Below, one piece after another: positions 43,035-58,967 of a DNA stretch of 63,136 nucleotides (its first letter is position 1; the number at the start of each line of letters is the position of its first letter). Position numbers and translations under genes: made by a program. The stretch comes from an uncultured Pelagibacteraceae bacterium (GTDB lineage: Bacteria > Pseudomonadota > Alphaproteobacteria > Pelagibacterales > Pelagibacteraceae): positions 1 through 63,136 of the forward strand of contig CACBKA010000007.1 in the NCBI GenBank assembly GCA_902539745.1. The letters run 5' to 3'. The notes beneath the pieces are model-generated. The model worked only from the letters and a program-made list of their open reading frames with translations, did no database searches and was not told the DNA's origin.

Positions 43035-43111
<77 letters not shown>

Positions 43112-43145: not shown

Positions 43146-44114
43146 TTACTTTTTTTGAGATAATTCCTTATAAATATTATTAACCCTATGTACTTCTTTT
43201 GGAATATTAAAATATCCAACATAATTAATTTCTTCAGGGGTAACATCAAAGTGATAATGTCCAGCATCCTTAAAATGTTTATAAGAATGAAAATGAGTAT
43301 GCTCGCCCGACTCTCTAAGATTTAAATTCCCACCAGTAGGGTCTCCTGTCCAAAGAACTGAATAACATTGTAGCTCTGGTCCTACAGGCTCATAGAATTG
43401 TAAAAAATCTTTTATACATTTCATTTGATCTGGATCATAATAATCTATTTTAATATCATCATAATCTGGTTGAACGTGTGATTTTATTTTTCCATTAAGA
43501 ATTCTAATGACGCCTGCTAAAGCTACATGGCTGTTCCCCTTTACTGGGAGGTAGGTTTGTAACGAATTTCTCATTGCTTGAGATAAAGACCCTTGCTTAC
43601 CAGTTCTTTTTTTAATTTTTATTTGAATTACCTTTCCTTTTTTTCCATCTGAGTAATAAATATTTGATAAACCTCCATGCTTTTTTGCAGTGTATTTAGT
43701 AACTATACACTCTTTATTTTTTCCAACTCTAGCGATTACAGATTTTGACTCTGAGGTAATAAAATTTTCATTAATAACCAGCTCACCACAGTGTCCCTGT
43801 AAACAAGACATGGCTCCTGAGCCAGCACCCAAAGCATATGATTTTTCCGAACCAATTTTTTTTGCAATTTCCTCATAATCAAATTCTGTGCCAATAAATC
43901 TTATATCATGCATATAAGGTTCCCCGCCAACATCTATTATCTTTTCATTTCCTGAAATTCCTTCAGATGGACAACCCCAATCTTTTAAGTTTGGACAGTC
44001 AACAACTTCGATATTTACTTGTTCGTAATTCTCCTTGAGACCAGTTAATAAAGCTTTTCTCACATCTTCTAGAGAGGGTGTTGCAAATTTTCCACTTTCA
44101 AATTTAAGCTTCAT
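43146..44114 (-). CDS. DUF1907 family metalloprotein (C11orf54/PTD012-like)
   Basis: Homologue of human C11orf54, a zinc protein with reported ester-hydrolase activity; its biological role in bacteria is unknown. The ATG at 44114 gives 322 residues starting MKLKFESGKFATPSLEDV. A longer in-frame start (44165) would run into the divergent gene and adds a non-family hydrophobic leader. Visible are DVGGEPYMHDIRF, ALGAGSGAMSCLQGHCGELV and a histidine cluster HTHFHSYKHF...GHYHFD (about 272-289) fitting the zinc site. No signal peptide in the short form. Its placement at the edge of the catabolic island suggests a hydrolase for a related ester or lactone. Confidence 0.82.
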   Translation of the reverse strand: MKLKFESGKFATPSLEDVRKALLTGLKENYEQVNIEVVDCPNLKDWGCPSEGISGNEKIIDVGGEPYMHDIRFIGTEFDYEEIAKKIGSEKSYALGAGSGAMSCLQGHCGELVINENFITSESKSVIARVGKNKECIVTKYTAKKHGGLSNIYYSDGKKGKVIQIKIKKRTGKQGSLSQAMRNSLQTYLPVKGNSHVALAGVIRILNGKIKSHVQPDYDDIKIDYYDPDQMKCIKDFLQFYEPVGPELQCYSVLWTGDPTGGNLNLRESGEHTHFHSYKHFKDAGHYHFDVTPEEINYVGYFNIPKEVHRVNNIYKELSQKK

Positions 44115-44131
44115 GTGATTACTTATAGGGT

Positions 44132-44902
44132 ATGAGTACATTAGCAGAAAAATTAGCAGATGCATGGATAAAAAGAGATTTAATTCAACTTAAATCAGAT
44201 GAACTTCCAAAAAATAGAGAAGATTCTCACGCAATTCAAAAACAATTCCACGCTGTATTAAAGAAAAAAACAGTTGGTTGGAAAATTGGATTAGTATCAA
44301 AGAATTTACAAGAAGGTGCAAAAGTCGAAGGTCCTATGATTGGAAAAATTATTGATGAAACAGTTTTGATGAACCCATCGAAAATTGAATACAGTAAAGT
44401 ACCTGATTGTATTCTTGAATGTGAATTTTGTTTAAAATTTTTAGAGGATACAAAAATGATACCTGGTGCTGAAAACAAAACAGGAAACTACGAGGCTTAT
44501 ATAGCTTTAGAACTTGTATCTACAAGAGTTCATTCGGATTCTAAAAAAGGTTTAAATCCAGTTGGAATGATGAATTTAAATATTGCAGATAATGGTGGAG
44601 CTGGAGCAGTAATTGTTGGAGACAAAATACAAAATCTCGATAAAATTGACTTAGATTCTATTCAAGTTGAAATCAATTTAAATGGAAAAGTAACAGAACC
44701 TTTTTTTAAAGGAGAAAAACGAGCTGGTCCTCAACTAGCAATAAAATGTATAATTGATGAGTTTAAAGATGATCCTGTAACTTTTAAAAAGGGTGATTGG
44801 TTTATGACTGGTTCGGTTATACAGCCTTTTAAAGTGAATAAAGGAGATAAGCTAAAAGTTGACTTTAGATCATTAGGAAAAATAAATTTAGATTTTATTT
44901 AA
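44132..44902 (+). CDS. 2-keto-4-pentenoate hydratase / fumarylacetoacetase family enzyme (MhpD-like)
   Basis: Probable divalent-metal enzyme that hydrates or decarboxylates a 2-oxo acid. 256 residues. Features of the MhpD/DmpH family are VGWKIGLVSKN, EGPMIGKII, the metal-ligand block CILECEFCLKFLED, a second acid in EAYIALELVSTR, and NIADNGGAGAVIVG. It starts 17 bases from the divergent DUF1907 gene and its end overlaps the convergent Gfo/Idh/MocA gene by eight bases. In this island it could act late in degradation of a ring-derived or sugar-derived 2-keto acid. Confidence 0.83.
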   Translation: MSTLAEKLADAWIKRDLIQLKSDELPKNREDSHAIQKQFHAVLKKKTVGWKIGLVSKNLQEGAKVEGPMIGKIIDETVLMNPSKIEYSKVPDCILECEFCLKFLEDTKMIPGAENKTGNYEAYIALELVSTRVHSDSKKGLNPVGMMNLNIADNGGAGAVIVGDKIQNLDKIDLDSIQVEINLNGKVTEPFFKGEKRAGPQLAIKCIIDEFKDDPVTFKKGDWFMTGSVIQPFKVNKGDKLKVDFRSLGKINLDFI

Positions 44903-45935
44903 TTTTAACTTTTTTCCCTGTTTTTGAACTTTTAATTATTGCTGCAAATATTTTAAGTGATATCAAACCATCTTCTCCGGTAATTTTAGGTTTTGCTTTT
45001 TTATTCACAACATCACATAAATGATTAATCTGATTTGTAAGTGTATACCTGCTTTCTCTTGTACTTTCATCTTTATGTAATATTGGCTTCCACCAACTTC
45101 TCTCTTGTTTGTTGTACCACTCTTTATAATTTGGAAATTGTATCGAGCTTTTTGTACCACCAATGTAGTAAGCAGATTGATTGGTAATCGGATAAGCAGG
45201 ATTTTCGCCTGCTGTTAATTCATAACTCCAAGGTGATACTATTGTGTCAGAAACACTCAAAGTGCCTAATGCTCCTGATTTAAAAATAAAATTTACTACT
45301 GCTGTATCTTCAACATCATATTTTCTGATTTTATTTGAAGATGATGCTTGCACATATTCAATAGGTCCTAACAAATAACAAATTAAATCGATATCATGAA
45401 CGAGATTTATACCCAAAGGACCCCCGCCCTTTTTTACTCTCCATTTCTCTTTAAACCATTCTTTGTTTTTATATAACCAGCACATCACGTTGACTGATAC
45501 AATTTTTCCTAATTTACCTTTAGAAATTTTACTCTTAACTTTTGTTGAAATTGCATTGTGTCTTCTATGATAACCAATAAGCAAATGTGTTTTGTTTTTT
45601 CTTGAAGATGCAATTATTTTTTTCGCCTTTTGAATATTACTTGAGATCGGTTTTTCTAATAGGACAGGAATTTTTGCATTTAAAAAACTAATTGTGTGCT
45701 TTTCATGAAATTGATTTGGTGTTGCAACAATTACAGCATCAGGTTTGTTATTTTTAATTAATGCTGATGAGTTTTTGTAAAATGGAACTTTAAATTTTTT
45801 GGCGTGTAGTCTTGACCGTTCATTAATATCTACTATCGAATGTAAAACAGCCTTTTGAGAATTTTTAATCGCTTTTAGGTGTTGGCTACCCATTAATCCA
45901 ATGCCAACAACAGCTATTTTGGTTTTATTTTTCAT
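44895..45935 (-). CDS. Gfo/Idh/MocA family NAD(P)-dependent oxidoreductase
   Basis: Probable dehydrogenase of a sugar, inositol or other cyclic polyol. The 346 residues have an N-terminal Rossmann motif VVGIGLMGSQHLKAI (about 9-23) and the catalytic-lysine motif LLEKPISSN near residues 92-100. The substrate loop with GGPLGINLVHDIDLICYLLG places the His-Asp pair of the family around 178-181. It is the last gene of the leftward catabolic unit; its ATG overlaps the CitE-like stop by one base. Substrate unknown. Confidence 0.88.
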   Translation of the reverse strand: MKNKTKIAVVGIGLMGSQHLKAIKNSQKAVLHSIVDINERSRLHAKKFKVPFYKNSSALIKNNKPDAVIVATPNQFHEKHTISFLNAKIPVLLEKPISSNIQKAKKIIASSRKNKTHLLIGYHRRHNAISTKVKSKISKGKLGKIVSVNVMCWLYKNKEWFKEKWRVKKGGGPLGINLVHDIDLICYLLGPIEYVQASSSNKIRKYDVEDTAVVNFIFKSGALGTLSVSDTIVSPWSYELTAGENPAYPITNQSAYYIGGTKSSIQFPNYKEWYNKQERSWWKPILHKDESTRESRYTLTNQINHLCDVVNKKAKPKITGEDGLISLKIFAAIIKSSKTGKKVKIK

Positions 45936-46576
45936 TAAAATATTTTATTTGATATATCAACTTGTCCTGGGTGGATACAAGCTTTTCCAGCAAACCCGAC
46001 TCTCTTAGCTACATTACAAGACTTCTCAAAACCTTTTAAATCTTTAAAATTAAGATATGAAGTATCAATAGGGTCTTTTGAGTGTGAAACTATAAGTTTT
46101 CTATAATTGAGAATTTCATTTTCATCATCGGATACTTTAAGATTAATAGACTTAGCTAAATCATGTGATCCGAAAGAGATAACTTTTATCCTTTCTTTAA
46201 ACTCACAAATTTCCTTAAGGTTTTGAATTCCCTTTTCACTTTCTATAATTGGAATTATATCTGTTTTAAGCTTTTCATTTGATTTTAGAATTTTATCAAT
46301 ATTTAAAAGCTGTTCTCTACTTTCGGTAAAAGGGAGAAAAATACCAATAAATTCCTCTTCGACTACAAAATCTAAATCTTCAATATTATTAATCCTGATA
46401 TAAGTTTTTTTTTTATCTACTTTACAATTTCTAATAATTTTCCTGGCATTTTGTTTTTCGTTATCAGGAACTGTAGACTCTAAATCAATTACAACTAAAT
46501 CAGCATCTAAAGTATATGCTTTTTTTATTTTTTTTTCCTCATGACCAGGAACAAATAAAACTGATCTATATTTCAT
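45935..46576 (-). CDS. Short CitE-like (HpcH/HpaI superfamily) C-C lyase
   Basis: Member of the citrate-lyase-beta/malyl-CoA-lyase fold, expected to cleave or form a C-C bond in an acyl-CoA or oxo acid. The active-site set is present: RSVLFVPGHEEKK, Arg61 in YIRIN, Glu112 in IIESEKG and Asp139 in SFGSHDLA. IHPGQV lies near the end. At 213 residues it stops right after that strand and lacks the last about 60 residues of normal CitE (270-290). LPKTES of the family reads LPFTES, and DLED reads DLES. No sign of a frameshift continuation is evident, because the next gene overlaps the stop. Confidence 0.82.
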   Translation of the reverse strand: MKYRSVLFVPGHEEKKIKKAYTLDADLVVIDLESTVPDNEKQNARKIIRNCKVDKKKTYIRINNIEDLDFVVEEEFIGIFLPFTESREQLLNIDKILKSNEKLKTDIIPIIESEKGIQNLKEICEFKERIKVISFGSHDLAKSINLKVSDDENEILNYRKLIVSHSKDPIDTSYLNFKDLKGFEKSCNVAKRVGFAGKACIHPGQVDISNKIF

Positions 46577-47654
46577 ATTTACTTAACCTTTTATAGTCTA
46601 AGTCAATACCTAAGCCAGGACCTGAGGGTAATTTATATTTTCCATTCATGGCTTTTTTAAAATTTGGGTAAAACTCTTGATCAATATCAAGGTAAAATCT
46701 CTCTATATATGTTTCTTTTTTCATCAAGGATGCTAGTTGAAGAGTGGCAAGAAAACCTGGTCCAAAGTAAGCGGTATGAGGCATTACAGAAATATTATTT
46801 TTTTCTGCACGTTGTATAATTTTATACATCTCGTAAATACCACCAACTTTAATTACAGACGGCTGAATATATGTTACAGCTTTTTGCTTGATCATTGACT
46901 TAAACTCGAATTCTGTACATGCATTCTCTCCACATGCTATTGGTGTTCCAAGCTCTTTATTTAATTTAGCAAGAGTTTCATAATCTTCTGGTGGATATAT
47001 AGGTTCCTCTAACCAAGTAAGCTTCAAATTTTTTAAAAAATCTTTTTTGGCCATAGTTTCTTCATATGTCCATGGACAATTAGTATCTAACATTAAAGGA
47101 AGATTGCCTGTTGCCTTTCTTCCAGCTTCAATACAATTATTTTCTATTTCATGTAATTTAATTGCTTGATAGCCATCGTCTAATGATTGTTTACACTTTT
47201 GCTCTACAATTTTTGGATCTCCATATCTAAAAAGACTTGAGTAGGCTTTAAATAAATCTTTATTTTTTTTTCCTAATAATTCATGGATTGGCTTATTTTT
47301 TTCTTTTCCTAAAGCATCCCATAATGCAATTTCAACACCAGATATTGCAAACATTGTAATTCCGTATCTACCAAATAAGTGTAAAGACTTTTGAAGAGTT
47401 AAAAGAACCTCTGGAATATTGCTTATATCTTTTCCTATAAGTAAAGGAGCTACCATATCTTCAACAGCAATTTTTACTGCTTTCCAACTTGTATAACCAA
47501 AGGCTTCACCCCAACCAGTGATACCTTTATCTGTTTCAATTTTTACTAAATTAAATTCTAAACTTTTCCATTCTTTTCCATGAAAAATTACTTTTTTCCC
47601 ACCATGACTAAATGGCATACTCAAAGTGATTGCTTTGATTGATTTTACTTTCAT
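46566..47654 (-). CDS. Enolase-superfamily (mandelate racemase/muconate lactonizing) enzyme
   Basis: Mg-dependent enzyme abstracting a proton next to a carboxylate: racemase, dehydratase or cycloisomerase. 362 residues. The capping domain carries GWGEAFGY. Metal ligands are probably Asp190 (LMLDTNCPW), Glu216 (WLEEPIYP) and Glu243 (ACGENACT). The second-strand pair is Lys166-x-His168 (IKLHE) rather than the common KxK. His293 (MPHTAYFGPG) is kept, but its dyad partner, usually Asp in QPDV, is Ser266 in IQPSVIKVGG. The exact reaction is therefore not predictable. It overlaps the CitE-like gene by 11 bases. Confidence 0.86.
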   Translation of the reverse strand: MKVKSIKAITLSMPFSHGGKKVIFHGKEWKSLEFNLVKIETDKGITGWGEAFGYTSWKAVKIAVEDMVAPLLIGKDISNIPEVLLTLQKSLHLFGRYGITMFAISGVEIALWDALGKEKNKPIHELLGKKNKDLFKAYSSLFRYGDPKIVEQKCKQSLDDGYQAIKLHEIENNCIEAGRKATGNLPLMLDTNCPWTYEETMAKKDFLKNLKLTWLEEPIYPPEDYETLAKLNKELGTPIACGENACTEFEFKSMIKQKAVTYIQPSVIKVGGIYEMYKIIQRAEKNNISVMPHTAYFGPGFLATLQLASLMKKETYIERFYLDIDQEFYPNFKKAMNGKYKLPSGPGLGIDLDYKRLSKYEI

Positions 47655-48424
47655 TAACGAAATTTTTTAAAATTTGGTTTTCTTTTCTCTAAAAAAGCCT
47701 TAGCACCCTCTGACTGTTCTTCGGTTTTAAAATAGTCGGGAGCAACTTCATCAACCATACTTTTTTGAGTTATTTTTAAAATTTCATCAAATTGTTTTCG
47801 AAAACTAGCTTTTAAAATCTTCAAACATGTTGGAGCTCCTTTTAATATTTCATCCCCATACTTTTTAACTTCCTCATCTAATTTTTCTCTTTTTACAACA
47901 GAGTTGACCAATCCCCAATTCATCATCTCTTTTGCAGAATACCTTTTGCACGTCATCCACATTTCCCTTGCACGTTTATGACCTAAAATATTCGCAGAGT
48001 GAGCAACGATAGCACCTCCTGCTGGCGATCCAACTCTTGGCCCGTTCTGTCCAAATATAGAATTTTCACTTGCTATAGTTAGATCACAAAAGTAAGCCAT
48101 ATGATTTCCTCCTCCGATTGCATATCCATCTACTTTTGCAATAATTGGTTTACTACATTTTGTTAAGTGGATATGAAATTCATATTCATGATCTTGAAAT
48201 TCTTTTGAACTTTCCCAGTTCATATCTCCACCTGCACAAAAAGCTCTATCTCCAGCACCAGATAAAACAATTACACCAACATTTTGATCTTTTTCAGCAC
48301 TATCTAAAGCAGTTTTCAATTCTTGAAGAGTAACGGGTGTGAACGCGTTTAATACTTTTGGTCTATTTATAGTTACATGAGCATAATCACTTTTAACTTC
48401 ATATATTATATCTTTAAATTGCAT
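47654..48424 (-). CDS. Crotonase-family enzyme resembling MenB/BadI
   Basis: Enoyl-CoA hydratase superfamily enzyme of 256 residues, close in style to naphthoyl-CoA synthase MenB and ring-opening 2-ketocyclohexanecarboxyl-CoA hydrolase BadI. Shared marks are MQFKDIIYE, VLSGAGDRAFCAGGD with oxyanion Gly 65-66, GYAIGGGNHMAYFCDLTIAS, FGQNGPRVGS and the C-terminal AFLEKRKPNFKKF. The MenB/BadI segment SFDGGYG reads SPAGGAI (133-139), so the Asp and Tyr important in that subfamily are absent. Start overlaps the acyl-CoA synthetase end by 11 bases, consistent with acting on its product. Confidence 0.86.
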   Translation of the reverse strand: MQFKDIIYEVKSDYAHVTINRPKVLNAFTPVTLQELKTALDSAEKDQNVGVIVLSGAGDRAFCAGGDMNWESSKEFQDHEYEFHIHLTKCSKPIIAKVDGYAIGGGNHMAYFCDLTIASENSIFGQNGPRVGSPAGGAIVAHSANILGHKRAREMWMTCKRYSAKEMMNWGLVNSVVKREKLDEEVKKYGDEILKGAPTCLKILKASFRKQFDEILKITQKSMVDEVAPDYFKTEEQSEGAKAFLEKRKPNFKKFR

Positions 48425-50333: not shown

Positions 50334-50337
50334 GGGT

Positions 50338-51282
50338 CTAGATATACATTCCCTCTTTGATTTTAATAATATTATACATGAGATCGTTTAGAGGAGTTTT
50401 GATCCCATGTTTTTTTCCAATTTTTGAAACAGCACCACTTATAAAATCTATTTCAGTTTTTCTATTCTTCAATACATCAAATGCCATTGAGGATTTATTA
50501 GTTTGTCTGGAATCTACTATTCTATTAAACATTTCAAGACAGTCTTTCTCACTGACATCTACCCCATCTGCTTTAGCAACTTCTCTTGTCTCTAAGATTA
50601 TTTCTTTGCCTAGATTTCGTGACATATTTTGATTTTTGTTAGATATATAAAGATCAGTGTGGTGAAGATCAAATATTGCAGAAAGTGGTCCTATCGCTGT
50701 AAGTGCAAATAATTTCATCCATTTTCTTCTTTTAATATCTTCTTCCGCAATAGTTTCTAAACCGTGTGATGTAAATGTTTCTGCAAGATCTTTTACCCTT
50801 TGGCTGTGCCCACCATCATACTCTCCAATCCAAGATGGTAAACTTGCATGATTTTGAATAATGCCCGGGCCTTGAATACTTGATGCTTGAGTAGTTGATC
50901 CTCCCAAAACTTTATCTTTTCCAGCTATATTTTGCATTATTTCTTCATGTCCTATTCCATTTTGAAAAGACATGAGCATAGTTTTATCACCTATTATATT
51001 TTTTGAATTTGTAAGAGCTTTCTCTAACGCGGTTGCTTTACACATTATAATTATGGCATCAACTGGTTGTAAGGTTTTGGGATCAGTTGTTGCTTTGATT
51101 TTTACAATTCTATCGCCACCATGACCCATCATTTTGAGACCTTTATTATTTATCTCATCAACATGGTCTTTCCACACATCAATTAAAACTACACTTAATC
51201 CTTTTTCTGCAAGCAAACCTCCGAAGAGACAGCCCATAGCGCCTGCGCCTAGTACAGCGACTTTGAGATTTTTATTAACCAT
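50338..51282 (-). CDS. 2-dehydropantoate 2-reductase family protein (PanE/ApbA-like)
   Basis: NAD(P)-dependent reductase of a 2-oxo or similar acid. 314 residues with Rossmann motif VAVLGAGAMGCLFGGLLAEKG (as two adjacent blocks, about 8-28), IIMCKATALEKAL with the conserved Lys, FQNGIGHE, the RRKWMKLFALTAIGPL helix with a catalytic-type Lys, and SSMAFDVLKNRKTEIDFISG. It could make pantoate, but it is embedded between the transporter and the acyl-CoA synthetase, while the only PanB-like gene here (58155) lacks PanB metal residues. A catabolic role is at least as likely. Confidence 0.85.
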   Translation of the reverse strand: MVNKNLKVAVLGAGAMGCLFGGLLAEKGLSVVLIDVWKDHVDEINNKGLKMMGHGGDRIVKIKATTDPKTLQPVDAIIIMCKATALEKALTNSKNIIGDKTMLMSFQNGIGHEEIMQNIAGKDKVLGGSTTQASSIQGPGIIQNHASLPSWIGEYDGGHSQRVKDLAETFTSHGLETIAEEDIKRRKWMKLFALTAIGPLSAIFDLHHTDLYISNKNQNMSRNLGKEIILETREVAKADGVDVSEKDCLEMFNRIVDSRQTNKSSMAFDVLKNRKTEIDFISGAVSKIGKKHGIKTPLNDLMYNIIKIKEGMYI

Positions 51283-52320
51283 TTATGCTTTCATTTTAAC
51301 TTGCACGCCAAAGAAACCAGTTGGTTTTATAAGTAAGACTACTATCATCAATAAAAATGCGTAAGCATCTTTATGACTTCCAGAAATAAAAAAAGCACAC
51401 GATGTTTCAAAAAGACCTACGGTGAAACCGCCAACGATTGCGCCTGGCAAACTTCCGAACCCTCCAACAACTGCAGATGCAAAAGCTTTTAATAAAATTA
51501 TATAACCCATATAAACTACTACTTGATATGTAGGTCCAACTAAAGTTCCTGCTAATCCTGCAAGAGCACATGCTATTCCAAATATAATCGAAATATAAAG
51601 AGGAACGTTAATTCCAACTAAGTTGGAGATTACCTTTGAGTGCGCTACGGCTCGAACACCTAAGCCCATTTTAGTTTTATTTAAAAAGAAATATAAAGCT
51701 CCTGCCACAGTAAATCCTGTAACCAACATCCATAAATATGTCATTGGCAACGTCACGCCACCTATATTAATTGGTAATCCTAAATCTGCATGAAAAGGAT
51801 GTGCTGTTGGATTCCAAATTATGTAAGCTAAGTTTAATAAGACAACTGATAAGCCAAAACCACAAATAATAATTCCCATTCCAGCAACGGTATAACCACC
51901 GCCTTTTTTTGTTAATGGTCTTAAAAAAACTCTTTCTATTAAAACACCAAAAAGACCCATGATAACAAATGCAAAAAATAATCCAATTACATAACCTACC
52001 CATCCGTAAGCATCAGGAAAAATTGCGTAAATTAATTCTCCATCGATTAGAAAATTATAAACTGTTAAACCAGTAAATGCTCCGAGCATGAAAAATTCTC
52101 CGTGTGAAAAATTAACTACATCTAGTCCTGTATAAATTAGAGAAATTCCTACAGCTACTAGTCCGTAAATTATTCCCACAGTGATACCGATTATTAATAC
52201 ACCTTTAAGAGACTCTAGGTTCATATCTGGGCTCATACTGATGTATCCTAGAAAAATTAATGTAAAAACTAACATCAAAGTATTTTCAAGTTTTCTTGTA
52301 AGTTTAAAACCTTTAAACAT
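51283..52320 (-). CDS. livH: HAAT-type ABC transporter permease LivH
   Basis: First of two permeases of a branched-chain-amino-acid-type importer. The ATG at 52320 gives 345 residues (a TTG-type upstream start at 52341 would add seven and overlap livF by 29 bases). About eight to nine hydrophobic segments are visible. Family marks are GIIYGLVAVGISLIYTGLDVVNFSHGEFFMLGAF near the N-terminus and AFASAVVGGFGSLPGAIVGG, the EAA-like loop contacting the ATPases. livF overlaps upstream and the PanE-like gene directly abuts its stop. Confidence 0.92.
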   Translation of the reverse strand: MFKGFKLTRKLENTLMLVFTLIFLGYISMSPDMNLESLKGVLIIGITVGIIYGLVAVGISLIYTGLDVVNFSHGEFFMLGAFTGLTVYNFLIDGELIYAIFPDAYGWVGYVIGLFFAFVIMGLFGVLIERVFLRPLTKKGGGYTVAGMGIIICGFGLSVVLLNLAYIIWNPTAHPFHADLGLPINIGGVTLPMTYLWMLVTGFTVAGALYFFLNKTKMGLGVRAVAHSKVISNLVGINVPLYISIIFGIACALAGLAGTLVGPTYQVVVYMGYIILLKAFASAVVGGFGSLPGAIVGGFTVGLFETSCAFFISGSHKDAYAFLLMIVVLLIKPTGFFGVQVKMKA

Positions 52321-53038
52321 TTGCTGTTGTACCTCCCCCACCTAGATATGAATCTTTTACAGACTCGTCGTACATCAATTTTTTAGACTCTCCCTCAACA
52401 TTAATTACTCCGTCCTTTATTACATAACCGTAATCTGCAAGCAAAAGAGCCATTCTAACGTTTTGTTCTACTACTAAAACTGTTAGGCCATCTTTTCTTA
52501 TTTTATTAATATTTTTAAAAATATCTAAAACAATTTGCGGTGCTAGCGCTGCACTTGGTTCATCAAGCATGATCATCTTAGGATTTGACATTAAACCTCT
52601 CCCAATACAAAGCATTTGTAATTCGCCACCTGATAATGTTGCAGCTAACTGACTTTTTCTTTCATTTAATCTTGGAAAATAATTAAAAACTTTTTCTATA
52701 TTATCATTTAATGTTTGCTTTGATTTAAGTGTAAAACCTCCTAATCTTAAATTTTCCAAAACTGTCATAGCAGGAAAAACGTCTTTTCCTTGAGTGACTT
52801 GAACCAAACCTTTTTCTACAATGTTGTGTGGCGGTAAATTTTGAATGTCTTCTCCATTAAAATTTATACTTCCTTTCCAAGTTCTAATTATTCCTGAGCA
52901 AGCTTTTAATATTGTAGACTTGCCTGTCCCATTTCCGCCAAGTAATGCAACTATAGATTGATTGTCTACTTTCATATTGGCTCCATTTAATATTTGCACT
53001 GAGCCGTAGCCTGAAACTAAATTTTTTATTTTGAGCAT
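52313..53038 (-). CDS. livF: HAAT-type ABC transporter ATP-binding protein LivF
   Basis: One of the two ATPases of the importer. The 241 residues have Walker A LLGGNGTGKST (32-42), signature ATLSGGELQMLCIGRGLM near 132-148, Walker B MIMLDEPSAAL, and the switch region VLVVEQNVRMAL typical of LivF. QVTQGKDVFPAMTVLENL matches the Q-loop area of the family. First gene of the leftward unit that runs through livH into the catabolic enzymes. Divergent from livJ with a 106-base shared control region. Confidence 0.94.
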   Translation of the reverse strand: MLKIKNLVSGYGSVQILNGANMKVDNQSIVALLGGNGTGKSTILKACSGIIRTWKGSINFNGEDIQNLPPHNIVEKGLVQVTQGKDVFPAMTVLENLRLGGFTLKSKQTLNDNIEKVFNYFPRLNERKSQLAATLSGGELQMLCIGRGLMSNPKMIMLDEPSAALAPQIVLDIFKNINKIRKDGLTVLVVEQNVRMALLLADYGYVIKDGVINVEGESKKLMYDESVKDSYLGGGGTTANV

Positions 53039-53043
53039 AGCTG

Positions 53044-53072
53044 TTGACTTAAAATTGTTTATTTAATCTAAT
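53044..53072 (+). promoter_or_regulatory. Sigma-70-like promoter of livJ
   Basis: TTGACT (53044-53049) and TCTAAT (53067-53072), each five of six bases to consensus, are separated by exactly 17 bases. Start of transcription would be near 53079, giving a leader of about 65 bases before the livJ ATG. The -35 is almost on top of the divergent livF start codon, so the two units probably share regulation here. Confidence 0.5.
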
Positions 53073-53091
53073 ACATTTAATTAAATTAATG

Positions 53092-53118
53092 CTTTGGCGT
53101 CAATTAAAAACGCCGAAG
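53092..53118 (+). promoter_or_regulatory. Leader hairpin or operator between livF and livJ
   Basis: An inverted repeat with arms 53092-53100 (CTTTGGCGT) and 53110-53118 (ACGCCGAAG) pairs over nine positions, one of them G-U, around a nine-base A/T-rich loop. It lies within the predicted livJ leader, upstream of a strong AGGGGG ribosome-binding site (53135-53140). It may be a transcript-stabilising hairpin or a dyad operator. No run of T follows, so it is not a terminator. Confidence 0.5.
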
Positions 53119-53144
53119 ATATATAAATTAAAAAAGGGGGAAAC

Positions 53145-54341
53145 ATGAAAAAAATAAATATAATTTTTTCAAGTTTGTTACTCGCTGTTAGTTTACTAGT
53201 TACTTCAGTAGCACAAGCTAAAGACATCAAAATTGGTGTTTCATTTAGAATGCTATCTGACGTTGGCTATAAACATGGTGAGTTAATTCAAGATACTGTT
53301 GCGGAGTGGAATTCTTCTGGCGGTATTAACGGAAAAAAAGTTGATTTGATACTTTACAATGATGAATGTAAATCTGAGAAAGGTGTTGCAAATGCTACGA
53401 AGCTTGCATACCAAGATAACGTTCACGTTATAATCGGATCTAGCTGTAGTTCAGTTACTTTACCAATGGTACCAGTAATTTCTAAAGCTAAAGTTCCACA
53501 AATCATTCCGCACTCAACAAGTTCAAAAATCACATTAACAGGAAGTGAATGGATATTCAGAGTTCCTGTTTCATCTAGATTTTACAAAATAGTACAAGCT
53601 AAGTTCACAGCAGAAAATGCTGGTACGAAGATAGCTCATATCTATGTACCGGACCAAGCTAGTATGGACTTTTCTAAATCTATGATTGCTTACGTGAAAG
53701 ATGAATACGGTGTTGATCCTGTTTATGAAGCGCAAGCTGGAGAAAAAGAAACTGACTTTAGATCTTACTTATTAAAAGCTAAAGCAACAAATCCAGACGC
53801 ACTTGTATGTTCAGGTTTAGTAGATGAAACAGTTCGTTGCTTAGTTCAATCTTACGAAGTAGGAATACCTAAGAGCGTAGCTAGAGTTGCAAACTCTGTA
53901 GCATCAAAAGTAGAAGTACCAACTAACGCTGGTAAAGCAGCTGTTGGTGTATCTTATGCTGCTGCTTTCGCTGCTTCTGACACAAGACCAATCGCTAAAA
54001 AGTTTGTTAAACATATTAAAAGTAGATATGGCGTAGTACCTGGCCATGACTTCTCTCAAATGGAGGACTTATTAACTATGTTAAAACCTGCTTTAGAAAA
54101 AGCAGAAAAAAGATTTAGCGGTGATCTTGCATCTGATAGGAAAGCTGTAAGAGACTCTATTGCTGGTATAACTAACTTTACTGGTTTAGCTTCAGGACCA
54201 ATCAGCTTCTGTGCTGCTGGTACGCCTGAGTGTAGAGATGGTAACAGAACACCTGTTATGATCGAGTACACAAAAGGTGGTAAAAACTGGAAGACTAAAG
54301 TAGCTGGTACAGTTACGTTTAACGCTAGTGCTGGTCTTTAA
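53145..54341 (+). CDS. livJ: HAAT-type ABC transporter substrate-binding protein
   Basis: Periplasmic receptor of the importer. The 398 residues start with a signal peptide (MKKINIIFSSLLLAVSLLVT, cleavage probably after SVAQA) and continue as a periplasmic-binding fold type I: DIKIGVSFRMLSDVGYKHGE, IGSSCSSVTLPMVPVI, GSEWIFRVPVSSRF and a Cys-containing C-terminal segment (ISFCAAGTPECRDGNRTP). Codon use is visibly richer in favoured codons than its neighbours and the ribosome-binding site is strong, both signs of high expression. The ligand is not readable; the symbol denotes the transporter position only. Confidence 0.9.
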   Translation: MKKINIIFSSLLLAVSLLVTSVAQAKDIKIGVSFRMLSDVGYKHGELIQDTVAEWNSSGGINGKKVDLILYNDECKSEKGVANATKLAYQDNVHVIIGSSCSSVTLPMVPVISKAKVPQIIPHSTSSKITLTGSEWIFRVPVSSRFYKIVQAKFTAENAGTKIAHIYVPDQASMDFSKSMIAYVKDEYGVDPVYEAQAGEKETDFRSYLLKAKATNPDALVCSGLVDETVRCLVQSYEVGIPKSVARVANSVASKVEVPTNAGKAAVGVSYAAAFAASDTRPIAKKFVKHIKSRYGVVPGHDFSQMEDLLTMLKPALEKAEKRFSGDLASDRKAVRDSIAGITNFTGLASGPISFCAAGTPECRDGNRTPVMIEYTKGGKNWKTKVAGTVTFNASAGL

Positions 54342-54353
54342 TAACTAAAATTT

Positions 54354-54388
54354 ATGAGCGGTAGTTTAATTACTACCGCTCATTTTTT
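54354..54388 (+). terminator. Terminator/attenuator between livJ and livM
   Basis: Perfect arms ATGAGCGGTAG (54354-54364) and CTACCGCTCAT (54373-54383) with a short A/T loop, followed by six T residues. It begins 12 bases after the livJ stop. It fits partial termination that keeps binding-protein mRNA in excess of livM and livG, as in other binding-protein operons. Confidence 0.88.
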
Positions 54389-54408
54389 AATCTTAAGGCA
54401 ATAAAATA

Positions 54409-55398
54409 ATGGGTAAATTTAAAGAAATTATAAGACAATATCCTTTCCTAGGTTTTGTTATTGCTTTTATAATTTTAATGTTAGTACCATCTGTTTTTTT
54501 TACAGATTTATATCAATCACATTTAGCAAGTTTAATTTGTATCAACATCATTGTTGCTGCAGGACTAAATATTGTTAAAGGGTTTTGCGGTCAGGTTACT
54601 GTAGGACATGTTGGGATATATGCAGTCGGTTCATACACCGCAGGATGTATGTTTTTATATTTAGGTTCTGGTTTGTGGTTAACTTTGCCCGCAGCAATAT
54701 TAATAGCTGGTTTATTTGGTGTGGCTTTCGCGATTCCATCTTTTAGATTAGAAGGTCCATATTTAGCCTTAGCTACCCTTGGTGGTGGAGAAGCAATACG
54801 ATTGTTTATCGAGAACGGAGATTTTTTTATGTCAACTTATGGAATTTCAAATATACCACAACCAGAGATTTTTGGAGTACCTTTTGATACTCCTGATAAA
54901 TATTATTACATCGCAATGCCTATAATGCTGATAGCAATATATTTTTCATTTAGTGTTTTAAGATCGTCAGTTGGAAGAGCTTTTATGGCTGTGAGAGAAG
55001 ATCCGATTTCTGCAGCAGCATCAGGAATAAATGTAAAAAAACATAAAATGCTAGCTTTCGTTTTAAGCGCAATGTTTGCAGGAGGTGCAGGTGCAGTATA
55101 CGCTCATTTACCTCCAGGATATATTCATCCAAACAATTATACTGTAATTGAAATGGTAACTTTCTTAGCCATGGTTGTTTTTGGTGGTTTGGGTCATATT
55201 TGGGGAGGAATAATTGGAGCGATTATTATTACGATTGTTTATGATTTAACAAGGCCACTTTATGAGTATCAATTATTTATTTTTGGATTAACAATTGTAT
55301 TAACAATTCTATTTATGCCTAAAGGTATTGGTGGATTTATTGACAAATATTTTATTGATAGAAGATTTAAAACCAAAACAGGAGCAGCGAGTAAATAA
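54409..55398 (+). CDS. livM: HAAT-type ABC transporter permease LivM
   Basis: Second permease of the importer. The 329 residues show about eight to ten hydrophobic segments. Family marks are LASLICINIIVAAGLNIVKGFCGQVTVGHVGIYAVGSY (in consecutive short blocks near 37-75), LEGPYLALATLGGGEAIRLF, GRAFMAVREDPISAAASGINV, and FLAMVVFGGLGHIWGGIIGA. It follows the livJ terminator by 20 bases and its stop overlaps the livG ATG by one base. Confidence 0.93.
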   Translation: MGKFKEIIRQYPFLGFVIAFIILMLVPSVFFTDLYQSHLASLICINIIVAAGLNIVKGFCGQVTVGHVGIYAVGSYTAGCMFLYLGSGLWLTLPAAILIAGLFGVAFAIPSFRLEGPYLALATLGGGEAIRLFIENGDFFMSTYGISNIPQPEIFGVPFDTPDKYYYIAMPIMLIAIYFSFSVLRSSVGRAFMAVREDPISAAASGINVKKHKMLAFVLSAMFAGGAGAVYAHLPPGYIHPNNYTVIEMVTFLAMVVFGGLGHIWGGIIGAIIITIVYDLTRPLYEYQLFIFGLTIVLTILFMPKGIGGFIDKYFIDRRFKTKTGAASK

Positions 55399-56195
55399 TG
55401 TTATTAAAAACAAAAAAGTTAATGAAAGCATTTGGTGGATTAAAAGCTATAAATAAAGTTGATTTTGAATTGCCAGCAAACGAAATTAGAGGAATTATCG
55501 GACCAAATGGTTCAGGAAAAAGTACTTTTTTTAATTTAGTATCTGGTGTTTATGAACCAGATCCAGGTAGCTACATTGAGTTTGATGGTAACGATATTAC
55601 TAATGAGCCTCCACACAAAGTTGGAGAGCTTGGATTAGCTAGAACATTTCAATTACTGAGGTTGTATCAAGATATGTCAGTAATAAATAACGTAATGTCA
55701 GGCTATCATACTTTAGTGCCATATAGTTTTATTGATGCTGTTACTGGTAGAAAAAAGATATGGGATCAAGAGAAAACCATTAAAGAGGAAATGATGGAGC
55801 TTCTTTCTTTTGTTGGTTTGGCTGACTACGCAGAGTTAAATGCAAGTGAACTATCAGGAGGTCAAAGAAGACTTCTTGTTTTAGCTAGAGCTATTGCAGG
55901 AAAACCAAAATTATTAATGTTGGACGAACCTGCTGCAGGTCTATCACCAGTGAACGTTGATAATTTGATGAAGATATTAATGCGGTTAAAAGAAAAATAC
56001 GGCTTAACACTAATTATAATTGAGCACATATTAAAAGTGGTTATGGACACCTGTAGTAAAGTTACAGTTCTTGATCATGGTGAAAAGATAGCAGAGGGTA
56101 CCCCTACCCAGATCAAGGATGATAATGCTGTGATTGAGGCTTATTTAGGTAAAAAAATGGATGACGAAGAAATGAGAAAAGCACTTGCAGTTTAA
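55398..56195 (+). CDS. livG: HAAT-type ABC transporter ATP-binding protein LivG
   Basis: Second ATPase of the importer. The 265 residues have Walker A GPNGSGKST (35-43), GLARTFQLLRLYQDMSV in the Q-loop region, signature SELSGGQRRLLVLARAI near 150-166, Walker B LLMLDEPAAGLSPV, and switch His in IIIEHILKVVMD. The NEPPHKV segment and the C-terminal extension KDDNAVIEAYLG are typical LivG features. A PhyH-family gene follows after 46 bases. Confidence 0.95.
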   Translation: MLLKTKKLMKAFGGLKAINKVDFELPANEIRGIIGPNGSGKSTFFNLVSGVYEPDPGSYIEFDGNDITNEPPHKVGELGLARTFQLLRLYQDMSVINNVMSGYHTLVPYSFIDAVTGRKKIWDQEKTIKEEMMELLSFVGLADYAELNASELSGGQRRLLVLARAIAGKPKLLMLDEPAAGLSPVNVDNLMKILMRLKEKYGLTLIIIEHILKVVMDTCSKVTVLDHGEKIAEGTPTQIKDDNAVIEAYLGKKMDDEEMRKALAV

Positions 56196-56241
56196 TACGG
56201 ACGATATATGATTTCAATTAATAAATTAAGATTCTAAGACT

Positions 56242-57231
56242 GTGAAAAACAAAATAAATAAAGAGCTAAAAGCCAAAGGTTTCATAAGAATAAGAAACAT
56301 CCTTAATTTTCAAAAAGATATCAAGCCTGTACTTAATGATTTAGGAGCAAAAGCTGATAAACTAATAGAAAAGTACTTTACAACGAAGGAAGCGAAGAGA
56401 TTATTTAAATTAAAGTTTCAGGATAAGTATTTTGCATTAACCAAAAAATCTGGGGTAACTTTTGAAAAAGTTTTTAATAATAGACCCCCACAAAACTTTA
56501 AAAAACATGAAAATGTTGAATATTTTAATCCTGAGTCAATATTCAATTTAATTAAATCGGATAAAATTTTAAATGTAGTTGAGAAAATTATTGGTAAAGA
56601 AATTTTTTCAAATCCAGTTCAAACTTTTAGGGTGAAAGAACCAAATATAAATTCAGGTAAAAATTTTATGGATGGTTTAATTGGTAGAACACCATGGCAC
56701 CAAGATGAAGGAACTATAAATAAAAAAGCAAGATTCAAAACTGACTTGGTGACAGTCTGGATACCATTTACAAAAACTAATGCTAAGAACGGCTGTATGT
56801 TGGCTGTACCTAAAAGTAATAAACTAGGTTTGTTAAATCACCACCACGGATCAAAAGGTCAGGTGGAAATAAAAAATTCAGAACTTATCCATAAGTATAG
56901 CAAAATGGTTCCACTTGAAGCTGATGTTGGCGATATAATTATTTTAGACAAAAGATTAATTCACTGTTCTCTTCCAAATGTTTCAAAAAATATTAGGATA
57001 AGTATGGACATTAGATTTCATAAAGCTGGGCAAAGTTCAGGGAGAGAGCCATTACCAAGTTTTTATGTAAGAAGTGCCAAAAAAGAAAATATCAAAGTTA
57101 AAACTTACCAACAATGGGTCGCTCTTTGGAACAAAGCTTACATGAAATCATTAAACAAGGGATATACATTCAAATATTATTTACCTGTTTATAAACATTC
57201 CAAGCAAGATTATTCTAAGAAATTAAATTAA
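56242..57231 (+). CDS. Phytanoyl-CoA dioxygenase (PhyH) family protein
   Basis: Fe(II)/2-oxoglutarate-dependent oxygenase, probably hydroxylating a small acid or CoA ester. 329 residues from GTG 56242. The facial triad is visible as His153-x-Asp155 (TPWHQDEGT) and His241 (LIHCSLPN), with 2-oxoglutarate-binding Arg252 in NIRISMDIRFH. WIPFTKTNAKNGCMLAVPKS matches the family core. It trails the livJMG genes and precedes an EamA permease, suggesting a role in processing the imported compound; the substrate is not known. Confidence 0.87.
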   Translation: MKNKINKELKAKGFIRIRNILNFQKDIKPVLNDLGAKADKLIEKYFTTKEAKRLFKLKFQDKYFALTKKSGVTFEKVFNNRPPQNFKKHENVEYFNPESIFNLIKSDKILNVVEKIIGKEIFSNPVQTFRVKEPNINSGKNFMDGLIGRTPWHQDEGTINKKARFKTDLVTVWIPFTKTNAKNGCMLAVPKSNKLGLLNHHHGSKGQVEIKNSELIHKYSKMVPLEADVGDIIILDKRLIHCSLPNVSKNIRISMDIRFHKAGQSSGREPLPSFYVRSAKKENIKVKTYQQWVALWNKAYMKSLNKGYTFKYYLPVYKHSKQDYSKKLN

Positions 57232-57234
57232 TTT

Positions 57235-58158
57235 ATGAAATCAGTTACGGAAAGGGTCTACCTTACAGACTTTATTCTTGCATGCCTTGCTTATTGCCTA
57301 TTTGTAGGAAGTGATTCAATTGTTAAATACTTAGGTTCAGATTATTCAATTGTTCAAATTATTTTTGTAAATTCTTGGTTCGCTTTAATTCCTATTGTTT
57401 TATACACGCAAACTTTAAATGGTTGGAGAAAATTAAAAAAAGCTAATTTTACAGTTCACTTTTTTAGAGCTTTAACAATGGCTTTAGCATTATTTTTCGG
57501 TTACACCGGTTTTTACCGATTACCAATGGTTACGATGTACAGCATTGTATTCTTGATACCTTTAATGATTACAATTGGATCAGTTTTCTTTTTAGGTGAG
57601 GTGGTAAGATGGAAAAGGTTTACAGCAATATTGATTGGTTTTATTGGAGCAATAATTTCCATTAATCCTTTTGGTACAGAGTATGATAATTATATTTTTT
57701 TAGCGCTTTTCTGCCCAATATTTGCTTCAGCAAGTTATTTAATAGTTAGAAAGTACGGTTTTAAAGAAAATTTATTCTCATTTTTGATTTATGGAAAAAT
57801 ATTAATGCTTGTTTTAACAGGAGTTTTTGCTTTATTTATTTTTAAGCCAGTCTCTCTAGACCACTTAATGTTAAATGGGGCTGCAGGTTTAATGAGGGGA
57901 ATTGCAACAATTTTTGTGGTAAATGCAGCAAGACATTTACCCGGAGCTATTTTTGGCTCAATTCTTTATGTACAAATATTTGGTGGGGTTTTAGTGGGTT
58001 ATTTTGTTTTCTCTGAAATTCCAACACTAAATAATTATATCGGAAATATAATAATAATAGGCGCAGGTTTATATATTGTGTTTAGAGAAATGCAGCTTAA
58101 GAAAAATATTGTTACTTCAACAGCTAGACACCCGACTATCCCTATTAAAAAAGATTAA
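57235..58158 (+). CDS. EamA/DMT-superfamily permease
   Basis: Inner-membrane transporter with ten predicted helices in two EamA repeats; substrate unknown. The 307 residues begin with a helix (YLTDFILACLAYCLFVGSD), contain SDSIVKYLG, the conserved FRALTMALALFFGYTGF segment and a C-terminal repeat (AGLMRGIATIFVVNAARHLPG, YVQIFGGVLVGYFVFSEIPT). Relatives often export or import metabolites and small organic ions. Three bases after the PhyH gene; the end overlaps the convergent PanB-like gene by four bases. Confidence 0.86.
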   Translation: MKSVTERVYLTDFILACLAYCLFVGSDSIVKYLGSDYSIVQIIFVNSWFALIPIVLYTQTLNGWRKLKKANFTVHFFRALTMALALFFGYTGFYRLPMVTMYSIVFLIPLMITIGSVFFLGEVVRWKRFTAILIGFIGAIISINPFGTEYDNYIFLALFCPIFASASYLIVRKYGFKENLFSFLIYGKILMLVLTGVFALFIFKPVSLDHLMLNGAAGLMRGIATIFVVNAARHLPGAIFGSILYVQIFGGVLVGYFVFSEIPTLNNYIGNIIIIGAGLYIVFREMQLKKNIVTSTARHPTIPIKKD

Positions 58159-58967
58159 AGTTTCTTTTTAAAATTTTCTAGAATTTCTTCACTAACATTT
58201 ACTGAATTTTCAGGCCCAGGAAACTTCCCCTCTAAACTATCTTTAATAAATGCTTTTAAGGCTTTAACTCTTTCGATTTCAATTTCATCTTTCATCTTTT
58301 TTAAATTTGTATAAGCTTTTGCATGTCTAGGGGACTTTTCTTGCTCACCACAGATATCATTCATGAAGAGATACATGACATCGGCTTTTTTTCCAGATCC
58401 AAGAGATACAGTAACAATACTTGTCCTTTTTGATATTTCCCCCATAATATTTTCAGGAATAACTTCACATTCGGCTGAAAAGGCCCCAGCATCTTCTAAA
58501 CGTTTAAATTTTTTATATAATTCGTATGCTTCATCAGCAGTTTTACCTACAGCTCTTAATCCACCAATCCATGTTGATTTTCTAGGAACTAAACCTAAAT
58601 GACCCATAACTGGAACATCTTCTTTTGCAAGCATAGTAACAACATCCATACTTCTAGCAGTCATAACCGCATCAGCACCATTCTCTAAAGCTTTAAAGGC
58701 ACCACGTAACACATCTTCGGCTGTAGGATAATTATGTAGTTCAAGTGCTGCTGTATAAAAAAGAGATTTAGATCCTCCCCGAACCTTCTTAACATTTGAA
58801 GCACTTCCTATTATCATGTCAAAACCAGCTTCTTCAGCTGCTTTTGCCTCTAATGAATTATTTGCAGTTACTTGTGTAAGAGTTTTTTTTCCTTTAGCTT
58901 TTATAATATCATCTACAGTGACAGTTCTTTTTGCAGGATTAGCCGCCCAAGTATAAATATTTTTCAT
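58155..58967 (-). CDS. PanB-like (ketopantoate hydroxymethyltransferase / ICL-PEPM fold) protein
   Basis: A 270-residue TIM-barrel protein with clear PanB landmarks: VMGHLGLVPR (His123), GGLRAVGKTADEAYELY, RLEDAGAFSAECEVIPE (Glu168) and KFPGPENSVNV at the end. However, the PanB GDS metal loop reads IGSAS (54-58), and the residues matching Asp84, Lys112 and Glu114 of E. coli PanB are not found (the KIEGG region reads MTARSM). A canonical metal-dependent ketopantoate synthesis is therefore doubtful. A related lyase in this superfamily is possible. It converges on the EamA gene. Confidence 0.75.
   Translation of the reverse strand: MKNIYTWAANPAKRTVTVDDIIKAKGKKTLTQVTANNSLEAKAAEEAGFDMIIGSASNVKKVRGGSKSLFYTAALELHNYPTAEDVLRGAFKALENGADAVMTARSMDVVTMLAKEDVPVMGHLGLVPRKSTWIGGLRAVGKTADEAYELYKKFKRLEDAGAFSAECEVIPENIMGEISKRTSIVTVSLGSGKKADVMYLFMNDICGEQEKSPRHAKAYTNLKKMKDEIEIERVKALKAFIKDSLEGKFPGPENSVNVSEEILENFKKKL

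Follow-up and report, generated by a model that had tools for sequence, protein, structure and literature searches.

Few cells on Earth are as numerous as those of SAR11, and the diet of each SAR11 lineage shapes the turnover of ocean carbon. Flexible islands in which an importer accompanies a coenzyme A (CoA)-dependent pathway are already known, and the SAR11 hypervariable region HVR4 is described, in the portion of PMC2217521 consulted, as flanked by tRNA genes. In the crotonase literature consulted (PMC3637252, PMC3660561, and PMC1431709), Asp-163 is given as catalytically essential in MenB (PMC3637252) and Glu144 and Glu164 as the catalytic residues of enoyl-CoA hydratase (ECH) (PMC3660561). 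Here, we describe a locus in a 63,136-bp stretch of DNA, hereafter the window, from an uncultured Pelagibacteraceae bacterium of the SAR11 group (contig CACBKA010000007.1; own assembly of 922,859 bases, 80.29% complete). Positions 43146 to 58967 constitute a gain/loss genomic island that combines two modules. Module A comprises a split HAAT importer followed by PanE-like, Acs-like, crotonase, enolase-superfamily (MR/MLE), CitE-like, and Gfo genes, and module B comprises DUF1907 and PanB-like genes. For module A, an importer-linked, CoA-dependent breakdown of an amino-acid-like compound is predicted, with a probability of roughly 50%. Each recognized protein falls in a known superfamily, and neither the gene combination nor the crotonase group with its GNH motif was found assigned in the literature and data searched. 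The gene set is not described in the consulted portions of the SAR11 literature (PMC7318151, PMC12636525, PMC2217521, PMC5069961, and PMC3090418), and no paper joining SAR11 and mandelate racemase was found in the literature searched.

Gene content, linkage, and gain/loss of the island

Open reading frame (ORF) content and coordinates were taken from the ORF list of the whole window, and families were assigned with Pfam and NCBIfam for ten proteins, that is, those other than the five liv products and EamA. For the crotonase and the Acs-like protein, the best 25 NCBIfam rows were listed. All genes named by the first-pass annotation are open ORFs, and its family names agree with Pfam and NCBIfam for nine of the ten scanned proteins. 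The exception is the MhpD-like protein, which has no Pfam match at E ≤ 0.001 and matches NCBIfam models only at scores well under their cut-offs. The features are as follows (coordinates, strand, description).

43035..43111, +, tRNA-Met(cat), left island boundary; tRNA-Met also marks this site in relatives G090, G020, and G003, where it is empty or holds other genes
43146..44165, -, DUF1907 protein (module B); PF08925, 201.5 bits; with PanB-like in 13/117 genomes
44132..44902, +, MhpD/HpaH-like protein, found in island loci next to genes of module B; best match TIGR02312, 83.7 bits, cut-off 351.5
44895..45935, -, Gfo/Idh/MocA dehydrogenase (module A); PF01408, 96.7 bits; follows CitE in 62/62 loci
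45935..46576, -, CitE-like protein (module A), a TIM barrel whose usual C-terminal part is missing; PF03328, 107.3 bits
46566..47654, -, enolase-superfamily (MR/MLE) enzyme (module A); motifs KLHE, GEN, QPSV, and PHxxY
47654..48424, -, crotonase-fold enzyme with GNH motif (module A); PF00378, 218 bits
48414..50333, -, Acs-like acyl-CoA synthetase, altered acyl pocket (module A); NF001208, 474.8 bits, cut-off 657
50338..51282, -, PanE/ApbA-family oxidoreductase (module A; in genus g3 genomes also next to genes of module B); TIGR00745, 245.8 bits, cut-off 141.35
51283..52341, -, livH-type permease; similarity to annotated or ordered Liv homologues, gene order
52313..53038, -, livF-type ATPase; similarity to Liv homologues, gene order
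53145..54341, +, livJ-type periplasmic binding protein; PDB homologues 4gnr and 3td9
54354..54383, +, terminator-like hairpin (12 pairs, T-run) between livJ and livM
54409..55398, +, livM-type permease; similarity to Liv homologues, gene order
55398..56195, +, livG-type ATPase; similarity to Liv homologues, gene order
56242..57231, +, PhyH-family 2-oxoglutarate (2OG)-Fe(II) oxygenase; PF05721, 71 bits
57235..58158, +, EamA-type permease (name from the first-pass annotation); beside PhyH in 37/37 testable loci
58155..58967, -, PanB-like protein (module B), right island end; PF02548, 129 bits

As the first-pass annotation had noted, the HAAT importer is split into two divergent units, which lie 106 bp apart, and the leftward genes overlap or lie within 4 bp of one another. 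Overlaps were found for livF/livH (29 bp), Acs/crotonase (11 bp), crotonase/MR-MLE (1 bp), MR-MLE/CitE (11 bp), and CitE/Gfo (1 bp), with gaps of 0 bp between livH and PanE and 4 bp between PanE and Acs. The hairpin directly after livJ might hold expression of the permease genes under that of the binding protein. Riboswitches or other regulatory RNAs were not detected in the window, the four matches at gathering threshold being three tRNAs and a 5S rRNA, and promoter-like sites were not above shuffled controls (66 versus a mean of 73.0). Homologues of DUF1907 are 322 to 325 amino acids (aa) long, suggesting that its true start lies inside the called ORF.

A crotonase search of the species collection yielded 75 loci, of which 72 were from SAR11 (L073 and L074 come from one genome). 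Each locus was read as far as its stretch reaches, and synteny was counted over the loci in which a gene pair is testable. The order of module A is kept in the 72 SAR11 loci as far as each stretch extends. On the enzyme side, adjacency was observed for PanE-Acs in 67/68 loci, Acs-crotonase in 71/71, MR/MLE-CitE in 68/68, and CitE-Gfo in 62/62; the corresponding values on the importer side were 61/62 for livF-livH, 63/65 for livH-PanE, 55/55 for livG-livM, 54/55 for livM-livJ, and 60/61 for livJ-livF. This gene order is beyond chance, and unlinked enzymes in relatives, the outcome named by the first-pass annotation as refuting its reading, were not what was found for module A. The module is located at several chromosomal sites.

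The least rigid junction is that between crotonase and MR/MLE, which are at most 1 kb apart in 61/70 loci. Nine loci depart from this, six of them with gene c34, which matches the beta-lactamase family weakly and under the cut-off. In the other three (L025, L053, and L056), TRAP-like, M24 peptidase-family, and epimerase-family genes lie between the crotonase and a diverged (58 to 60% identical) MR/MLE gene. Many variants (37 of 74 clustered stretches) have an extra 2OG-Fe(II) oxygenase, c13, between livJ and livM, and further Gfo genes were found in 40 (c12) and 36 (c14) of the 74. Between CitE and Gfo, many variants have a small GGACT-like gene (L022 12499-12903, the copy scanned; 31 ORFs of 134 or 149 aa by length), which the window lacks. 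The cluster count of 94 for Gfo is inflated by merging with these ORFs (18 and 13 by length, one scanned). The transporter half of L058 is rearranged, with PanE-livH-livF opposite Acs, and all module A genes are kept.

Four pairs of loci were compared, and each island gene included showed purifying selection, with ratios of nonsynonymous to synonymous distance (dN/dS) of 0.010 to 0.261, some dS values being close to saturation and PanB being compared in one pair only. Synonymous distances to L005 form a mosaic (livJ, 0.03; Acs, 0.09; MR/MLE, 1.49; flanking efp, 0.92), and such jumps along the island point to piecewise exchange between lineages.

The island is bounded by tRNA-Met and transaldolase/pntB, and five relatives were compared at this site. 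It is absent from the same site in two of them. G090, from the same genus, has pntA-pntB-transaldolase (with pntB split across two frames), a 169-aa MhpD piece, tRNA-Met, purE, gcrA-like, imp, and efp, with nothing further between. This solitary MhpD piece (L188 3018-3527, 72% identical, between transaldolase and tRNA-Met) looks like the scar of a lost island. In G020, tRNA-Met directly follows pntB. The gap holds other genes in G003, about 4 kb of other genes separate pntB from tRNA-Met in G001, in which the far side is different, and no tRNA was found in the stretch of G009 examined. By eye, no integrase was recognized among the window ORFs, a model-based integrase search not having been made, and no convincing flanking direct repeat was seen among the window repeats. 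The purE/efp flank is present in 13/72 SAR11 loci; other copies adjoin lpxB/lpxI/lpxA/fabZ/lpxD-like or trxB/carB-like genes (named by eye). A tRNA scan of 16 stretches detected tRNA-Met in L003 and L040, both at the purE site, and none in the other 14, several of which end within or at the edge of the island.

Occurrence was assessed in 117 evenly drawn Pelagibacterales genomes. Crotonase (E ≤ 1e-70) and livJ (E ≤ 1e-60) were each found in 2/117, the same two genomes, one being the window's own (hypergeometric, 1.5e-4). In the same sample, DUF1907 was present in 13 and PanB-like in 14 genomes (the PanB-like protein of G096 being only 42% identical); the two occur together in 13 (hypergeometric, 2e-16) and are neighbors in 12 of these 13, whereas they stand at opposite island ends in the window. 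Eleven of the 13 genomes lack the livJ and crotonase of module A. All 11 belong to one genus, g3, and are thus not 11 independent events. Module B is hence separable from module A, and the first-pass inclusion of DUF1907 and PanB-like in the same system as the importer could not be upheld; a single pathway uniting them with module A was rejected. Restriction of the two genes to the island, suggested by an empty sample of 11 genomes, was overturned by the larger sample. Among island loci of at least 20 kb, DUF1907 was found in 14/40 and PanB-like in 12/40, counts that miss copies past stretch ends or elsewhere in the genome. The PanB equivalog TIGR00222 scores the PanB-like protein at 95.9 bits, under its cut-off of 207.55.

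In the 11 g3 genomes, the module B genes stand beside a PanE gene 75 to 77% identical to that of the window. The c13 oxygenase and PhyH adjoin this cassette in all 10 g3 loci reaching far enough, an HpaI-type aldolase and an aldehyde dehydrogenase in 11/11, and an IolD-type gene (inositol breakdown; scanned copy 802.3 bits, cut-off 715) in 10. The cassette is also near sugar-ABC-like genes (L176-L186). No MhpD match was present in 12 non-island module B stretches examined. PanE and PhyH thus occur in both contexts, and the island as listed mixes two systems. Counts of PhyH itself depend on the criterion (27/40 loci at ≥50% identity; 53 stretches by clustering).

Predicted route of module A and competing readings

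We propose that LivJ would capture a small zwitterionic, amino-acid-like compound for import by LivFGHM. PhyH, and in many relatives the second 2OG-Fe(II) oxygenase, would oxidize it prior to CoA activation, with PanE and Gfo as candidates for NAD(P)-linked oxidations. The Acs-like ligase would convert an acid larger than acetate into its CoA thioester, in which the GNH crotonase, whose residues are not hydratase-type, may cleave a C-C bond via a CoA-stabilized enolate. The enolase-superfamily enzyme would then take water off a hydroxy acid, and the CitE-like barrel would split the product into small acids or acyl-CoA. In agreement with the first-pass annotation, the importer and its enzymes do not equal any single known pathway.

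Several observations weigh against this prediction. No clear amino-group-removing enzyme was recognized in the island, and EamA could mean export. L040 lacks PhyH, and the island is rare, the two genomes of the 117 including the window's own. The AlphaFold2 (AF2) model of LivJ, made from 9 sequences, has a predicted local distance difference test (pLDDT) score of 43.8, which makes a structure-based reading of the ligand impossible. None of the regions opened outside SAR11 holds the complete module, and in 18 such regions the MR/MLE relatives share no common neighborhood. In the rows listed, curated cut-offs were reached only by broad models (Pfam domains and TIGR00745 for PanE) and no NCBIfam equivalog cut-off was reached; functions rest on distant homology, and the pathway is therefore unreadable from family names alone. 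Belief beyond the proposed route is spread over the rival readings below and unknowns.

The importer is of the HAAT type, as a binding protein, two permeases, and two ATPases stand together (LivJ by its PDB homologues, the others by similarity). Nine copies of LivJ do not vary at residues 99-103, 123-125, and 227-228, and Asp-Glu at 227-228 is invariant in the 59 rows of a larger alignment. Glu228 aligns with a Glu of 4gnr and 3td9, which we take to be branched-chain amino acid binders; 3sg0, presumably an aromatic-acid binder, has Pro there. Because this Glu is common to two branched-chain amino acid binders, the ligand may carry an amino group, which renders the carboxylate class assigned by the first-pass annotation doubtful; Glu228 is a lead to the substrate class and not proof.

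The same residue could indicate uptake of leucine, isoleucine, or valine by LivJ followed by side-chain breakdown, with PanE acting on 2-oxo or 2-hydroxy acids and Acs and crotonase on branched acyl-CoAs. In pantoate synthesis, branched 2-oxo acids are substrates of PanE-family enzymes, and the best solved relatives of LivJ are the binders named above. However, this livJ is absent (E ≤ 1e-60) from 115/117 Pelagibacterales genomes, which is odd for a general nutrient, the MR/MLE, CitE-like, and Gfo proteins have no role in known branched-chain amino acid breakdown, and the crotonase lacks the hydratase glutamates. We consider this reading unlikely. A protein named LivJ2 (SAR11_1361) of strain HTCC1062, a possible counterpart of the livJ of the window, appears in PMC5069961.

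The crotonase carries the motifs GGGNHMAYFCD and FGQNGPRVGSPAGG. Its best models among the rows listed are MenB PRK07396 (256.5 bits) and BadI (247.4 bits, under the cut-off of 467.6). The position of MenB Asp-163 is occupied by Ala, with the equivalent of Ser-161 kept, and the positions that we presume to correspond to ECH Glu144 and Glu164 are His (of GNH) and Gly. The motif GSVDPG, the aspartate of which we take to mark BadI-type enzymes, reads GSPAGG in the window. These residues speak against the first-pass reading as BadI or MenB. Enoyl-CoA hydratase function was rejected on loss of both glutamates, strict MenB identity on loss of the essential aspartate, and strict BadI identity on the altered motif and low score. 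Close relatives are rare: at E ≤ 1e-70, the phylum sample of 398 genomes contains 3, counting that of the window. Seven relatives beyond SAR11, 50 to 59% identical, share GNH (L069, L070, L078, L079, L080, L174, and L175). Of these, L079 and L080 have another second motif, apparently with Glu retained at the Glu164 place, and form a side branch. GNH relatives adjoin ring-oxygenase-like, CoA ligase, SDR, acyl-CoA dehydrogenase, and TRAP, HAAT, or betaine-type transporter genes (partly by eye), and a single pathway common to these neighborhoods was not found.

These surroundings are relevant to the reading implied by the first-pass annotation, in which an alicyclic ring is activated with CoA and then opened in the manner of BadI. 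The BadI score, the proximity of GNH-type relatives to CoA ligase, SDR, and acyl-CoA dehydrogenase-like genes, and the GSVDPG crotonases of L110, which adjoins an Acs relative, and L082, which joins HAAT genes and a CoA ester lyase, speak for it. With GSVDPG replaced by GSPAGG, the score short of the cut-off, and an acyl-CoA dehydrogenase missing from the scanned island proteins, we regard ring opening of this type as very unlikely.

Outside SAR11, the regions opened surrounded relatives of Acs (16 regions), MR/MLE (18), and the crotonase (two), and plasmid regions were added for 12 of 75 matches (H1-H75); plasmid searches with MR/MLE, Acs, livJ, CitE, and PanE each listed 12 records of hundreds to thousands. 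HAAT genes stand beside a 53% crotonase relative in L069 and beside 40 to 41% Acs relatives in L113 and L121 (2 of the 16 Acs regions), and in L110 a 43% Acs relative adjoins a 47% crotonase. The nearest outside echo of the island is L078 (Leisingera), with TRAP, crotonase (58%), AACS-type ligase (24%), and MhpD-like (24%) genes in this order. These partial pairings support an importer-Acs-crotonase core, with the MR/MLE-CitE-Gfo part lacking outside support. Relatives of Acs and MR/MLE co-occur above expectation in 384 other alphaproteobacteria (7/18 Acs genomes, P = 5e-4), but the loci are different, and genome size may account for the excess. Longest-ORF calling lost genes in GC-rich contigs (e.g., the crotonase of L174), so gene absences in such outside contigs are weak. 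A partial parallel was seen on a Pseudorhizobium flavum plasmid (L082, NZ_LR723671.1), with HAAT genes near a 46% crotonase, a 26% CitE relative (the CoA ester lyase), acyl-CoA dehydrogenases, and CoA transferases. In L110 (8229-17614; alphaproteobacterium G321), the GSVDPG crotonase and Acs relative lie beside an Old-Yellow-Enzyme-like reductase and three acetone/ketone carboxylase-like subunits (by eye), a set that possibly carboxylates a cyclic ketone, activates the product with CoA, and opens the ring.

The CitE-like protein is 213 to 220 aa long in 65/65 copies, against 273 to 339 aa for homologous chains, and the C-terminal part expected after the barrel of citramalyl-/malyl-CoA lyases is missing. 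Its AF2 model (pLDDT 87.7) yielded 50 listed structural matches of the CitE, CLYBL, and malyl-/citramalyl-CoA lyase types, with TM-scores by query of 0.80 to 0.90 and no HpaI type among them. Glu112 and Asp139, to which we presume a metal role, are invariant in 20 aligned copies. An itaconate/citramalate-type route, in which Acs activates, the crotonase hydrates, and the CitE-like protein cleaves citramalyl-CoA into acetyl-CoA and pyruvate, would suit the Acs, crotonase, and CitE set, the fold match to citramalyl-CoA lyase, and the best model, RipC (112.5 bits, cut-off 375). Yet both hydratase glutamates are gone, the C-terminal part is lacking, and the Asp of DLED is Ser in nearly all aligned copies, which leaves this route highly improbable.

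The MR/MLE enzyme shares QPSV with 17 outside homologues (41 to 48% identity), in several of which KLHE, GENACT, and PHxxYFGPG are changed. The Asp that is normally paired with the catalytic His, a role we assume from the superfamily, is Ser. Galactonate and arabinonate dehydratases are the best models, at 168 bits against a cut-off of 311 among 16 families, so no sugar-acid dehydratase equivalog was matched. Nevertheless, MR/MLE, CitE, and Gfo always occur together, and in the 11 g3 loci the neighbors of PanE and module B include an HpaI-type aldolase and an aldehyde dehydrogenase, joined by IolD in 10 of them. These data could point to a sugar-acid route, with dehydration of an aldonate-type acid by MR/MLE, aldol cleavage by the CitE-like protein, oxidation by Gfo, and the CoA genes as a side branch. 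We judge it quite unlikely given the low score, an importer of HAAT rather than sugar type, the CoA-lyase types that make up all listed CitE-like matches, and the unbroken Acs-crotonase pair.

The PanE-like protein exceeds the subfamily cut-off of TIGR00745, which places it in the ketopantoate reductase PanE family. PanE and two 2OG oxygenases occur without the module A importer in 10 g3 loci, and PhyH and EamA are always adjacent where testable. Both facts could fit a make-and-export cassette, in which a metabolite would be modified and secreted through the oxygenases, PanE, and EamA, and it or a relative taken up again by the importer. Acs, CitE-like, and MR/MLE proteins suit breakdown better, and only 1 of the 10 g3 loci has an EamA match after the cassette; the chance of such a cassette seems slim indeed.

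As a specific substrate, mycosporine- or gadusol-type cyclohexenones, sunscreen metabolites of marine algae, would by analogy suit the LivJ Glu through their amino acid side chain. The 2OG oxygenases would take the O-methyl carbon, the PanB-like protein the hydroxymethyl carbon, and the GNH crotonase would hydrolyze the ring beta-diketone. The g3 cassette by IolD, a ring-opening enzyme of inositol breakdown, would fit this ring chemistry. The separability of PanB-like from module A weakens its part, and we hold this substrate to be a long shot.

Comparison with known systems

A conserved importer and coherent pathway exchanged as an island suggest that the dissolved compound is worth about 15 kb in a streamlined genome. 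The island also brings to light a group of crotonases whose active-site residues are altered, together with a CitE-like protein of reduced length.

At the level of single enzymes, the crotonase resembles MenB and BadI as its best models and in the Ser at the MenB Ser-161 position, and differs from MenB by Ala for Asp-163 and from ECH by the GNH His at the Glu144 place. The Acs-like protein is homologous to acetyl-CoA synthetase over its full length (345.2 bits to 8rpk and 324.6 bits to 2p2b). In contrast to that enzyme, DTWWQTE is replaced by NSAGGTE, the WW pair reading AG, so that the acetate-limiting Trp, which we take to be the acetate-gating Trp414, is missing. The CitE-like protein has the same TIM barrel as citramalyl-/malyl-CoA lyases, CLYBL, Mycobacterium tuberculosis CitE, and RipC, but the C-terminal part is gone and DLED has become DLES in nearly all aligned copies. 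Some solved CitE homologues have only 215 to 231 ordered residues, and the missing part may be flexible in them.

At the level of the locus, the island shares gain and loss of transport genes with the hypervariable and flexible islands of SAR11. Like other HAAT importers located by CoA-pathway genes (L082 of Pseudorhizobium, L069, L113, and L121), it has a five-gene importer beside CoA enzymes. It differs from these loci in that the importer is split into divergent units and is continuous with PanE, Acs, crotonase, MR/MLE, CitE-like, and Gfo genes.

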